A stretch of 50,107 bases of DNA from a bacterium (GTDB lineage: Bacteria; Bacteroidota; Ignavibacteria; Kapaibacteriales; UBA2268): contig JAUIIX010000015.1 of the NCBI GenBank assembly GCA_030431515.1, forward strand, positions 1 through 50,107, written 5' to 3'. Both the position numbers and the translations under genes were made by a program. How positions within the stretch are numbered: the stretch's first letter is position 1; the number at the start of each line of letters is the position of its first letter. Shown here piece after piece: positions 13,471 through 18,493 of the stretch. The notes under the pieces are model-generated. The model searched no databases and was not told the origin of the DNA. It saw nothing but the letters and a program-made list of their open reading frames with translations.

Positions 13471-13484
13471 TCTAAAATAAGCAT

Positions 13485-13519
13485 TTAAAAAAGCCACTTT
13501 ATAGTGGCTTTTTTTTTAC
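13485..13519. terminator. Bidirectional terminator between convergent cargo genes
   Basis: AAGCCACTTTATAGTGGCTT (13491-13510) has an A-run on the left and nine Ts on the right. It can serve both the plus-strand gene ending at 13470 and the minus-strand gene whose coding region ends at 13516. Confidence 0.85.
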
Positions 13520-15372
13520 CTCACCACCTGAAACTTCTCACTAAATACCTCACTATTATTCTTCATAACTTGCAGAATATAAGTGCCACTATCCAAATAA
13601 TTAAAATCAAGAGTAGGCGATAAATTACTGCTTTTTATTACTCGACCTTGTAAGTCAATTAATCTATATGTATGACCAACTATTTCTTTACTGTATAAAA
13701 TGTTATTCTTAAACTCAAAGTTTGGATTACTTTTTACAGATGTTATTGGACCGGCTACAAAATTAAATCCTGTTTTATCTTCGGTAATGCCAACATAACT
13801 GTACTCTTCTGGGGTAAATGTATATTCATCTGAAAATGCTTTGTATGTATAGTTAAACCCTTGCTCTATATTTTCAAATAAATAAAATCCTTCTTCATTT
13901 GTTTTTACTGTGTCATATTCTTTTCCAGATGTTGATATATGCTTTATAGATTGTATAGAAATATCTTTTATACCCACTTGATTATTATACACATTACCAG
14001 AAATATTATGGAATATTTTTTTACTACTTGCTTGAAAATTAATGATAGTATCATTTATTGTTGATATTTGAATTTTATCTGGATAATAAAAGAAAGGTCT
14101 ATAGTTAAAGTATTTATTATAAACTTGCAATGTATATTCTTTACCAGGTCGAATTTGTATAAATTGATAATATCCGCTACTATCTGTCATTGTTATTCGA
14201 TTATCGAGTGCTACAGGTATTTCTGCTTGTGGCTTTTCATCTTCCATTACATAACCACTAATAACTAATATATCTTGTGGCTTAGGTGCAAGATTATCTT
14301 CTGTCATTCTAAATAAATAGTCATTATACTTTAAATATAATGGAGTGTCGCCTGCATATTCTATGTTTGAACTTAATAAATGAATTTCTAACATTTCTTT
14401 AGATTGTTCCCTTTCGTAATACCAACTTTCTCCAGCATCATAAGTGTAACATATTTTATAATCTGAACCGGTTGCAATTCCAACGGAATCATTTTTAAAT
14501 TTAATTGTACCAAAACCTCTCGAATCACTATATTTTGCTTCTACATTATAAGCCAAATGGCTATAGAAAATATCTAATACACATTTCCAAGTTTTTCCAT
14601 TATCTGTAGATTTTAACATAAAATCTCTACTTCCAACATTTTTTATTCTTTCGTTTGTTCCTGCCAAATAAATAATATTATCTGTTTTAAACATACTTAC
14701 AAGATTTAAATTATAATCTAATTTACTTAATAATATTTTTTCTTGAGATTTAAGATTAAAACTTTCAATTACATATTGATATCTTAAACTAACTGTATCA
14801 ATATAATAATTTAAAAGAAAAATTATACTGTCATTTATAAATTGTGCATCAGTCATAAATGGTTGATTATCTACCCTGTCTATTTTTATTTTTTTTTCAG
14901 TGTCAAAGCCATCAAATGTTGAAACATAATAATAGTACTCTTTCAATTCTCCACCTGAAGTATCAACTTCAAATCTCCAAGTGAACCCAATATTTTTATC
15001 ATACATTTTAAATACATTATGTATATTAATCAATCCATTACAAATTGTATCTTTAGTTTTAAAACCATCACTTGTTCTAACTATACCACAACCTCCATAG
15101 TAGGGAATGAAATAGTTTAGAGAATCCGGAAAGCTTAATTCAATATCAAAATCTTTATAATTTAAATGATCATCGAATAAGAATTCCCATGTTTCACCTT
15201 TGTTTGTTGTTTTATAGATTTCACCAGTAAAATTTGAAACAAGAAAACAATTATTTGAATCAGGACAAAATATATCTACTACATTTTTGGGTCCTGTCAA
15301 ATCTATTTTCTCCCACACATTTTGCGAAAATGCTATATATGGTAAAAATATTATCAAGATTAATTTATACAT
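13516..15372 (-). CDS. Ycf48-like T9SS cargo protein
   Basis: Secreted protein of 618 residues: signal peptide (1-16), then a BNR/Ycf48-type beta-propeller to about residue 365 with IYKTTNKGETW, LKSTDNGKTW and YTYDAGESWYYE. Two carboxypeptidase-regulatory-like (transthyretin-type) domains follow at about 370-455 and 460-540 (ISGYVMEDEKPQ; ISGNVYNNQVG, with NEEGFYLFENI). A T9SS type A sorting domain fills about 545-618 (IDLQGRVI, SGTYILQVMKNN, KFQVVR). Function unknown; probably a surface or secreted protein. The ATG at 15372 lies 2 bases after the stop of the preceding gene, and its ribosome binding site AAGGTAG is made of that gene's last Arg codon and stop. Close relative of the gene at 16067-17917. 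Confidence 0.85.
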   Translation of the reverse strand: MYKLILIIFLPYIAFSQNVWEKIDLTGPKNVVDIFCPDSNNCFLVSNFTGEIYKTTNKGETWEFLFDDHLNYKDFDIELSFPDSLNYFIPYYGGCGIVRTSDGFKTKDTICNGLINIHNVFKMYDKNIGFTWRFEVDTSGGELKEYYYYVSTFDGFDTEKKIKIDRVDNQPFMTDAQFINDSIIFLLNYYIDTVSLRYQYVIESFNLKSQEKILLSKLDYNLNLVSMFKTDNIIYLAGTNERIKNVGSRDFMLKSTDNGKTWKCVLDIFYSHLAYNVEAKYSDSRGFGTIKFKNDSVGIATGSDYKICYTYDAGESWYYEREQSKEMLEIHLLSSNIEYAGDTPLYLKYNDYLFRMTEDNLAPKPQDILVISGYVMEDEKPQAEIPVALDNRITMTDSSGYYQFIQIRPGKEYTLQVYNKYFNYRPFFYYPDKIQISTINDTIINFQASSKKIFHNISGNVYNNQVGIKDISIQSIKHISTSGKEYDTVKTNEEGFYLFENIEQGFNYTYKAFSDEYTFTPEEYSYVGITEDKTGFNFVAGPITSVKSNPNFEFKNNILYSKEIVGHTYRLIDLQGRVIKSSNLSPTLDFNYLDSGTYILQVMKNNSEVFSEKFQVVR

Positions 15373-15374
15373 TT

Positions 15375-16070
15375 CTACCTTAATATTATGAATTTACTTG
15401 AAATTATTTCTTGGTTTTCAATATTGATTAATAAAATGTAAAAACCATTTTGATAATTCTCAATATTTATGTCAAATTCATTTCGTCCTTTCTTTATAAA
15501 TATATTTTGAGAAATTAATTCAATACCTTGTAAATTAATTATCTTATATTGTGAAGATGGAAATGATAGATTAGAATTTATTTCAATATGAATTTTATCT
15601 AGTTTTTGTGAAAACTTATAATTAAAATCTTTATATTGCTCTAATTCATTCTCATTTTCTATATTTATTTTATAAGCAGTATAATTAATGGAATCTAAAT
15701 TATTTAACCATTCATCACATTTATAATTACAATTAGATGAATCGTAAACAAATTGTTCTCCTACATTTCTTTGATTATAATATAACTTCATATTATCACA
15801 TGTATCTTGAGAATTCCATTCTTCTATTACTTCTATGTCAATTCTATTTGACACAGTCAAACTTCTACATACTTTAATACCAACTACACAACATTCCGAT
15901 TCATCGCAAGGAACTAATGCGAAATTAGGTGTTGGGTTTGCAATAGTTCCATGTTGACCTAAAGGAATTTGTGTCCAACATGAGTTTTGAACTATTCGCC
16001 AAGTAGAATTTTTGTTTTCTCTTTCCATAATTTCATAAGAAGTATTTCCAAAAAATTTATTGCATATCAC
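15375..16070 (-). CDS. T9SS cargo fragment without signal peptide
   Basis: 231 residues ending in a T9SS sorting domain (YKIINLQGIELIS, YQNGFYILLINIENQ, KFIILR). The N-terminus MICNKFFGNTSYEIMEREN is not a signal peptide, so the protein as read could not enter the Sec pathway that T9SS cargo needs. The preceding part is cysteine-rich (VPCDESECCVVGIKVC, DTCDNMK, CNYKCDEW). The only start available is a GTG at 16070 overlapping the upstream stop as GTGA, with AGGTGGTAAG just before it. The simplest reading is the 3' end of a larger cargo gene whose 5' part was lost by recombination at the sorting-domain boundary. A coupled, truncated but expressed protein remains possible. Confidence 0.6.
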   Translation of the reverse strand: MICNKFFGNTSYEIMERENKNSTWRIVQNSCWTQIPLGQHGTIANPTPNFALVPCDESECCVVGIKVCRSLTVSNRIDIEVIEEWNSQDTCDNMKLYYNQRNVGEQFVYDSSNCNYKCDEWLNNLDSINYTAYKINIENENELEQYKDFNYKFSQKLDKIHIEINSNLSFPSSQYKIINLQGIELISQNIFIKKGRNEFDINIENYQNGFYILLINIENQEIISSKFIILR

Positions 16071-17917
16071 CTTACCACCTGAAACTTATGAGTAAATACC
16101 ATCTGCTCACCTTTTGTAACATGCAATATATAAGTCCCTGTCTGCTCGGCGTTTAGGTTTAATTCCTTGGGGAGAATGCCGCTATTTATTACTCTGCCAG
16201 TAAGTGAGAAGATGTGGTACTGCATACCTACAAATTCTTTACTTATTAAAACATTATTTTTTATTTCAAAGTTTTTATTTTCTTTAATTGATGATATTGG
16301 AGATGCTTCAAAATTAAAATATCCGTGATTTTGAATTAAAAAAATATCTTTTTCTAATGGCTCAATTTTATAAGTTTCAGATTTAGGTAATAATTTATAA
16401 TAACCAGCAATGATTGAATCGAATCTATATAAACCATCTTTATCTGTTACAGTCGAATAAGTTGAACCACCATCTAAACTATCAAAATTGACTTTAATTC
16501 CTTCAACTCCAACACTATCAGACAATACATATCCAAATATAAAATATTTTCCATATTTCAGTTCACTTTCAAAATCTATCCCACTTGTATCTGAAGTTAA
16601 TTCAAAGGAATGTACTGGCGAATACAAAAATGGTTCATAATGATAATCTTCTTTTGGTCCTGAATCTATATATTTATTTAGTGCAGTAACCGAATATGTT
16701 CCAGGGGACAATTTTGTAAATTTGTAATTACCTTCTTCATCTGTCATAGTTATTCTATTGCTATTTAAGCGAATTGGTATATGTGTTATTGCAAGACTAT
16801 CATCTGATATTATTTTACCACTTATAGTCAATGTGTCTTCGGGTTTTGGTGCTAGATTATCAACTTCTAATGTATGAATTGCTCCTGTGAAGTCCCCAAT
16901 AATTGCTCTATCACCAGCATAAGTAACAAGCATAGTTGGGGGAGAGAGAGAATCTATAATCCTTGGTAAATTTTGTTCATAAAACCAACTTTCACCACCA
17001 TCATAAGTATATAGAATTTTACCAAACTGACCAACTGCAATTCCAACTGAATCATTTTTAAATGCGATATCTTGTAAGCCAAAAGGTCTATTAAAAACAA
17101 CTTTACCATTTGACCAGCCTGTATATAAATCTAAAATTGTTCTCCAAGTTTTTCCTGCATCAGTACTTTTAAATACAGCATCATGTCCTGAACCACCTGT
17201 TATTCCATCTTTTTTTCCACATAAATAAAACACAGAATCATTTGCAAATTCAATTTCTAAATATGACATATCTGGAAAATTAATTGTTATAAATTCATCA
17301 GTTAGAAAATTATATCTGAAAAATTGTCTTTGATAAATGTAGGTTTTGCCAGGTTCATTTGATTCCTGTAATTCCTTACCAAAATTAGATAAAATACCCA
17401 TTGACAAAGTATCATTATATTTTTTTATAACGTGTGAATTTAAAATAAAAGGTAATTGAATAGTATCAAAAGTTTTCCAACCGTCATAAGTTTTATAAAA
17501 CTTTACTGGCATATTTGCAATACCATTTCTATCATCAAACATTATCAAATCATCAATGAAGTTGTTATAACCAATATCAATTTTTTCAAAATTGCTTCCA
17601 AAATCTGTTGATTTTAATATAATTCCACCATAGAATGATATATAAATTAATGAATCAAAAACTTCTATATCTCTATATGCTTCTACATTATATTTTGTTA
17701 AATCGTTAAGAAGGAACCAATTACTTCCATTATTCGTTGATTTATATAAATAATTTGGCGTACCTCTTGTTGAAATCATGTATATATTATTTGAGTCAAT
17801 TACTTCAATTTTTTTTATAACAGATTCTTCAGGAGTTCCATTCAAATCAAGTCTAACTTCCCAGATATTCTGGGAAGAAAGACTTGTTAGACATAAGATG
17901 AAAATTAAAAACAACAT
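16067..17917 (-). CDS. Ycf48-like T9SS cargo protein
   Basis: 616-residue secreted protein built exactly like the gene at 13516-15372: signal peptide (MLFLIFILCLTSLSSQ), Ycf48/BNR-like propeller (LYKSTNNGSNW, ILKSTDFGSNF, VFKSTDAGKTW, YTYDGGESWFYE), carboxypeptidase-regulatory-like domains (ISGKIISDDSLAI; FGYVLSDSVGVEG with DKDGLYRFDSI) and a T9SS sorting domain (FSLTGRVI, QTGTYILHVTKGEQ, KFQVVR). The phrase FKNDSVGIA recurs in both. The ATG at 17917 lies 2 bases after the stop of the orphan sorting domain upstream. Function unknown. The two copies presumably arose by duplication and have diverged. Confidence 0.85.
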   Translation of the reverse strand: MLFLIFILCLTSLSSQNIWEVRLDLNGTPEESVIKKIEVIDSNNIYMISTRGTPNYLYKSTNNGSNWFLLNDLTKYNVEAYRDIEVFDSLIYISFYGGIILKSTDFGSNFEKIDIGYNNFIDDLIMFDDRNGIANMPVKFYKTYDGWKTFDTIQLPFILNSHVIKKYNDTLSMGILSNFGKELQESNEPGKTYIYQRQFFRYNFLTDEFITINFPDMSYLEIEFANDSVFYLCGKKDGITGGSGHDAVFKSTDAGKTWRTILDLYTGWSNGKVVFNRPFGLQDIAFKNDSVGIAVGQFGKILYTYDGGESWFYEQNLPRIIDSLSPPTMLVTYAGDRAIIGDFTGAIHTLEVDNLAPKPEDTLTISGKIISDDSLAITHIPIRLNSNRITMTDEEGNYKFTKLSPGTYSVTALNKYIDSGPKEDYHYEPFLYSPVHSFELTSDTSGIDFESELKYGKYFIFGYVLSDSVGVEGIKVNFDSLDGGSTYSTVTDKDGLYRFDSIIAGYYKLLPKSETYKIEPLEKDIFLIQNHGYFNFEASPISSIKENKNFEIKNNVLISKEFVGMQYHIFSLTGRVINSGILPKELNLNAEQTGTYILHVTKGEQMVFTHKFQVVR

Positions 17918-17919
17918 TT

Positions 17920-18123
17920 TTACCTTGTAATAATAATTTTACGTGTTAATATATGTTTTCCACTTTCAAAAATGTTAAGCATATAAACACCTGTGTTTAA
18001 GTTGCTTAATCTTACTGGAAATTCATTTATACCTATTTGCAATTTAGATTCTCTCTCTTCAATTATTCTACCCTCTATCGATTGTAATTGAAGTTTGAAA
18101 TGATTTGATTCAATTTGTGACAA
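17920..18123 (-). pseudogene. Orphan T9SS sorting domain (cargo gene remnant)
   Basis: The 67 codons encode only a T9SS type A sorting domain (LQSIEGRIIEERES, LNTGVYMLNIFESG, KIIITR), with no signal peptide and no passenger. The only in-frame start is a TTG at 18123 without a good ribosome binding site. It directly abuts the Ycf48-like gene and ends ACA-AGG-TAA, which serves as that gene's ribosome binding site. It is most likely the 3' remnant of a deleted cargo gene, perhaps kept because it carries the upstream signals of the next gene. Confidence 0.65.
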
Positions 18124-18493
18124 TAACTTATAATAATTTCACAAAATCTTGTCAGCAACTTAAAATACATTTTTATTATTTCCAAATTATTTTAAAAATA
18201 TTTCAAAATATATTTAAAAATAAAACATAGAATAAAGAGCATAAATCACTAATTTTTTTTAGACTTATTTTTTTAGCCCTTGTAACACACAATAATTCAA
18301 ACAATTTACAAGAAAAGTGCAAAAACCAAAAAATGAAAAATTAGTGATTTAGAGAATATTATCTAAGCAGATAACGCAAATTTGTTTTCACTTTAAAGAC
18401 AATAATATTTTTGCTGTTATTTAGCATCACATTGAATCCAAAAAAAAAGCCACGCAATTGCATGGCTTTCATTTCAAATATTTGAAAGATAAA
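18124..18493. other. Gap with inverted repeat and lpdA terminator
   Basis: No gene is seen in these 370 AT-rich bases. A perfect 15-bp inverted repeat (AAATCACTAATTTTT at 18243-18257, its complement at 18336-18350) encloses 78 bases that have no ORF. The lpdA terminator is at the right end. Confidence 0.6.
18441..18470 (-). terminator. Terminator of lpdA
   Basis: AAAGCC and GGCTTT flank an inner GCAATTGC palindrome (18447-18470). An A-run on the left (18441-18448) is the T-run on the minus strand. Confidence 0.8.

Follow-up and report, generated by a model that had tools for sequence, protein, structure and literature searches.

An array of four open frames, all ending in similarity to type IX secretion system (T9SS) sorting domains, lies on the minus strand at 13516-18123 of the window, by which we mean the whole 50,107-nucleotide (nt) stretch analysed (contig JAUIIX010000015.1 of GenBank assembly GCA_030431515.1, from a bacterium of the Kapaibacteriales). 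The initial annotation read these frames as four cargo genes; the array is instead composed of two complete T9SS cargo genes and two 5'-truncated relics. Its features, including the presumed Shine-Dalgarno (SD) sites and the genes named by their length in amino acids (aa), are as follows.

18155-18342, minus strand: leader and presumed promoter region, matching at 87% over 208 columns the sequence ahead of the long C54 first gene (L056 4543-4750)
17920-18123, minus strand: relic 1, the last 67 codons (sorting domain) of a first, Cys-rich cargo gene, by matches to PF18962, TIGR04183 and the C54 tail
17915-17925, minus strand: junction 1, AGG TAA AA ATG, the AGG (A at -8) being the presumed SD of the 616-aa gene
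16067-17917, minus strand: complete cargo gene of 616 aa, with a signal peptide (by eye), repeats, domains and a weak sorting domain
16067-16072, minus strand: junction 3, where the final AGG of the 616-aa gene overlaps GTGA, not a credible context for a start, with relic 2 next
15375-16070, minus strand: relic 2, an open 231-codon frame that includes the final ~206 residues of a first-gene homologue
15370-15380, minus strand: junction 2, AGG TAG AA ATG, the AGG being the presumed SD of the 618-aa gene
13516-15372, minus strand: complete cargo gene of 618 aa, a paralogue of the 616-aa gene, with TIGR04183 above cut-off
13481-13510, minus strand: stem with a T run, resembling a terminator and lying behind the last gene, noted by eye and without an entry from the terminator scanner

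Direct reading of the minus strand bore out the junctions as first annotated: at junction 1 AGG (17925-17923) is followed by TAA (17922-17920), AA and ATG (17917-17915), at junction 2 AGG (15380-15378) is followed by TAG (15377-15375), AA and ATG (15372-15370), and at the third junction AGG (16072-16070) overlaps GTGA (16070-16067). The last codon is Arg AGG in all four frames, also as annotated. Starts had been placed 0-2 bases after stops; the gap is 2 nt at junctions 1 and 2, and junction 3 is a gene end abutting relic 2, its GTG being no credible cargo start.

The 616- and 618-aa proteins are 34% identical paralogues, aligned end to end, and both have BNR/YCF48-type repeats, CarboxypepD_reg/SdrD_B-type domains and C-terminal similarity to sorting domains. 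With cut-offs of 23 bits for TIGR04183 and 27 bits for PF18962, the sorting domain of the 618-aa protein scores 24.9 (above) and 19.8 (below) respectively, while the putative one of the 616-aa protein is weak, at 18.5 and 18.9 bits, each under its cut-off. When all four units were judged by eye, only these two had an N-terminal signal peptide. The array is like known T9SS type A cargo (Por_Secre_tail, TIGR04183/PF18962) in the sorting-domain similarity at all four ends and in the signal peptides of the two complete genes, and differs in that both relics are without a signal peptide and most of their gene. A scan of named genomes with the 616/618-aa alignment gave 10 loci at 21-31% identity, covering query residues 34-353 at most. 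A copy of the 618-aa gene, with 88% DNA identity and cut off by the contig start, lies at G000:C38:1-1577.

Contig C54 of the same genome carries a 1242-aa frame ending in ...IIITR with AGG TGA, and 4 nt further on a 621-aa cargo gene whose product is 71% identical to the 616-aa cargo. Window positions 18342-18155 align (87%) with the leader that precedes the 1242-aa frame, and positions 18145-16068 align (76%) with the last ~73 codons of that frame and the entire second gene. The ~3.7 kb of the first gene between these two blocks on C54 are missing from the window, which makes the 67-aa unit the tail end of a first gene otherwise deleted. This relic 1 opens with TTG, matches only the last ~70 residues of the 1242-aa frame and scores 32.2 bits with PF18962 and 24.5 bits with TIGR04183. 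Relic 2 is, by its match, a second remnant of the first-gene family directly behind the 616-aa gene: positions 15378-16019 match residues 1037-1242 of the C54 frame (29% identity), comprising the Cys-rich end and the sorting domain of a first-gene homologue (TIGR04183 22.5 bits, just under the cut-off, and PF18962 30.0 bits, above it). The matches of these two units to the C54 frame rule out four independent cargo genes, and the frames of 67 and 231 codons are best annotated as gene remnants. A Pfam scan of the 1242-aa frame and its two relatives gave the sorting domain as the only named match.

Over 64 codons, relic 1 and the C54 tail share 56 of 64 residues (87.5% aa and 81.8% nt identity), with nonsynonymous divergence (dN) of 0.105 and synonymous divergence (dS) of 0.87, and the same comparison between the window and C54 gives dN 0.20 and dS 0.83 for the whole second gene and dN 0.085 and dS 1.67 for its last 68 codons. 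In this one comparison relic 1 still looks constrained, which would fit a recent deletion or a retained function alike. The C54 frame itself has a (TA)14 tract in its signal-peptide region (L056 4871-4898; G000:C54:22870-22897), and, as assembled, the upstream ATG (L056 4828) does not share a reading frame with the body; the tract may act as an on/off switch by strand slippage, or its length may be an assembly error.

The locus is probably made up of two diverged tandem copies of a conserved two-gene T9SS cargo operon, with the first genes eroded from their 5' ends and AGG acting as a minimal SD. Given the long form of the ancestral pair on C54, the two AGG-stop-AA-ATG junctions are alike by descent and not by rule. 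The first-gene tails in the array belong to one family and the second-gene tails, both ending in QVVR with AGG, to one other family, and the four AGG ends are therefore not four independent observations. The initial annotation had further proposed that cargo modules are cut and joined at sorting-domain ends, but nothing indicates such a mechanism, and the array reads as two truncations in a duplicated gene pair, with one breakpoint near the sorting-domain start (relic 1 homology begins at residue 1173 of the C54 frame, where the sorting-domain match begins at residue 1169) and the other ~200 aa short of the end of the gene. The locus illustrates that junctions may recur strikingly through duplication of one gene pair and without any rule behind them.

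A match to the first gene was found in 21 of the 54 family genomes searched (own genome included), and of 19 loci inspected, 16 had the second gene next to it; these lie in 13 genomes including the window's own (L056, L064, L065, L067, L068 and some of L190-L215), making a conserved T9SS cargo pair of a Cys-rich protein and one with propeller-type repeats. This list is not exhaustive; the 3 loci with no second gene in view were dropped, weaker first-gene matches without an assigned locus were left out, and the junction comparison covers the 16 loci and the two window junctions. The ~350 aa that first genes share ahead of the sorting domain include 18 cysteines that are invariant across 14 aligned sequences, and gave no Pfam match in the 3 proteins scanned.

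When the gap between the paired genes was 2-6 nt, the last codon of the first gene was AGG in 6 of 6 cases (the two window junctions, C54, G003, G052a and G051). At a gap of 9 nt it was AGG in neither of two, G020 ending in AAA with AGGA in the gap and G052b having TAAGG as stop plus gap, and at gaps of at least 56 nt it was AGG in none of 10, the exact start at these long-gap loci having been chosen by us among candidates. Fisher tests gave p=5e-5 for 6/6 against 0/12 and p=5e-4 without the window copies (4/4 against 0/12), though the loci are not independent. We regard this pattern as moderate support for AGG acting as an SD in this gene pair. As assembled, the first-gene frame is interrupted in the G051 and G052a homologues, which fits occasional loss of the first gene with the second gene and the junction kept.

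Judged by sequence, the organism does appear to use SD-anti-SD pairing, including AGG at -8, which is where the AGG of junctions 1 and 2 stands, within the upstream coding sequence and with a spacer of 2 nt. In the window's own genome, AGG peaks at -11 to -8 of 221 control starts and is present at -13..-7 in 157 of 581 ATG starts (27%) against 4% at -48..-42, and in the relatives G020 and G051 (400 kb of each sampled) AGG is near the start in 29% and 30% of cases against a background of 4-5%. CCTCC is found at the 16S rRNA 3' end in all 3 relatives in which a full-length 16S was read (a 16S match was obtained in 6 of the 20 genomes searched). In 131 close junctions sampled from the own genome, an SD-like triplet (AGG, GGA or GAG) is present in 56 and begins inside the upstream coding sequence in 38, both counts being without a shuffled control. 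The objection that an SD reading is impossible since Bacteroidia do without SD use is ruled out by the SD enrichment in the own genome and the samples of two relatives.

Separately from this locus, SD-like AGG is present at 27-30% of starts in a lineage whose T9SS sorting domains number at least 150, while the class Bacteroidia is described differently as to SD use in the account we cite for it (PMC9976891). With SD sites at many starts in this T9SS-rich lineage, unlike in Bacteroidia as depicted there, the gene that follows may influence which codon a gene ends with. The proposal that the final AGG doubles as the SD of the next cargo is plausible at junctions 1 and 2, where AGG stands at -8 and short-gap relatives share it, but did not hold up as a general rule.

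In its general form, the initial annotation made sorting-domain ends into portable junctions, at which AGG doubles as SD and modules cut or joined there stay translated. This would account for the AGG at the end of all four units and for relic 2 coming straight after the end of the 616-aa gene, and one more tandem pair of sorting-domain genes with AGG-TGATG (C138:116487-119275) agrees with it. Among sorting-domain hits at large (150 of 224 candidates scored, 148 of the 150 readable to a stop), AGG is the final codon in just 9 of 148, the commonest last residue being Lys (65), which rules out AGG as a rule of sorting-domain ends. The effect of a close downstream start was examined at 141 sorting-domain gene ends, using simple longest-frame gene calls made by script and not by a gene finder, with a called gene of 100 aa and 150 nt of downstream sequence required; C54 gene 1, the 616-aa and 621-aa genes and relic 2 were outside the sorting-domain list and relic 1 was under the length limit. 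AGG was last in 1 of 16 such genes with a close downstream start and in 8 of 125 without (p=0.67), and when the first four uncounted genes were added by hand the figures became 3 of 18 and 10 of 127 (p=0.21). The G051 sample leaned towards the proposal (AGG 1/2 close against 0/25 far, p=0.07), the G020 sample did not (0/3 against 1/21), and pooling both with the own genome gave 2/21 against 9/171 (p=0.34). No excess of AGG before close starts was thus found among sorting-domain genes, the result that the initial annotation had itself named as refuting its model, although power is low because few sorting-domain genes have close neighbours. For all genes the outcome was similar, with AGG at 4 of 111 close and 14 of 539 other ends among 650 in the own genome (p=0.37) and at 7 of 204 against 21 of 1043 in the pooled set (p=0.16). 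As relic 2 also begins ~200 aa before its gene end, away from any sorting-domain boundary, we consider portable junctions very unlikely.

It is also conceivable, though unlikely, that terminal AGG has no connection with initiation, G-ending codons being favoured beside stops and translation proceeding by reinitiation or from A-rich, SD-independent starts. Terminal Arg is AGG in 18 of 42 cases, whereas AGG makes up 7% of internal Arg codons; at the 650 gene ends of the own genome AAG and GAG, too, are raised in the final position, and A at -3 is strong (63% of the 221 starts). For AGG the over-use holds even where no gene follows closely, so that AGG before a stop is alone weak evidence of an SD. 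Such a bias does not explain the genome-wide enrichment of AGG at start distance, nor why at the 9-nt gaps of G020 and G052b an AGG lies in the gap or across the stop while the last codon is not AGG. A further explanation, that the relics are assembly chimaeras of paralogous operons, draws on the draft state of the assembly and on C38, where a contig edge truncates a near-copy of the 618-aa gene, but DNA divergence from C54 is ~13% for the leader, ~18% for relic 1 and ~24% for the second gene, and so the window does not consist of misplaced C54 reads; we regard a chimaera as highly improbable.

Several points nevertheless weigh against a duplicated operon with AGG as its SD. The assembly is a draft of 160 contigs in which paralogous repeats can be misjoined, and no 16S was found in it. 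The short-gap pairs seem to be mostly one orthologous group, taken as such without a tree, in which case the 6 of 6 are not six independent events; measured against the terminal-Arg AGG share of 0.43, five independent retentions would give p ~0.015 and four 0.034. Terminal AGG is present in 14 of 35 Arg-ending genes without a close start, and the second genes on C54, on C38 and at window 13516 all end in AGG with no close gene behind.

On the reading as a duplicated operon, the unit is a Cys-rich cargo gene followed by a propeller-type cargo gene, and each copy has lost the 5' part of its first gene while keeping the 3' tail, the junction and the second gene. Transcription would start in the retained leader and continue as a single transcript across both relics and both complete genes, ending at the terminator-like stem near 13500. 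The terminator scanner reported only 18470-18445 (minus strand) and 14210-14233 (plus strand), the stem at 13481-13510 not being among them, and a promoter scan was uninformative (52 sites against 41.5 expected in shuffles). The last Arg codon of each tail, AGG, would act as an ordinary SD recruiting ribosomes to the second gene, which starts 2 nt past the stop, and the tail may persist partly as an SD carrier.

An SD embedded in the tail of the upstream gene is an ordinary bacterial arrangement, described before and common in this genome; the presumed SD sites of the array were inherited with the gene pair. Genes with an SD are reported to tend towards one of two distances from the gene before them, either <5 bp, where the SD overlaps the coding sequence of that gene, or >8 bp (Palleja et al. 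2009, PMC2784483); the array is like the systems described there in its spacers of <5 nt and the SD-like purines in the upstream last codons, and as far as that description goes it differs only in that the upstream tail is a T9SS sorting domain. The 2-nt gaps fall within the range given as capable of termination-reinitiation coupling (Huber et al. 2023, PMC10666635). Unlike in the coupled pairs of that report, relic 1 opens only with TTG and a translating ribosome upstream is not assured, so any coupling here is putative. No literature was found on T9SS together with translational coupling, and, judged by title, nothing related on T9SS in Kapabacteria.

The sorting-domain tails left over from the dead first genes may also have been retained by selection, acting as brief translated leaders or as SD carriers that set expression of the surviving second cargo. 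We think this improbable, but if true, an exported-protein signal would have been reused as a 5' control element.

The tandem at G000:C138:116487-119275 is made up of two sorting-domain genes that have the same last residues and are joined by AGG-TGATG.

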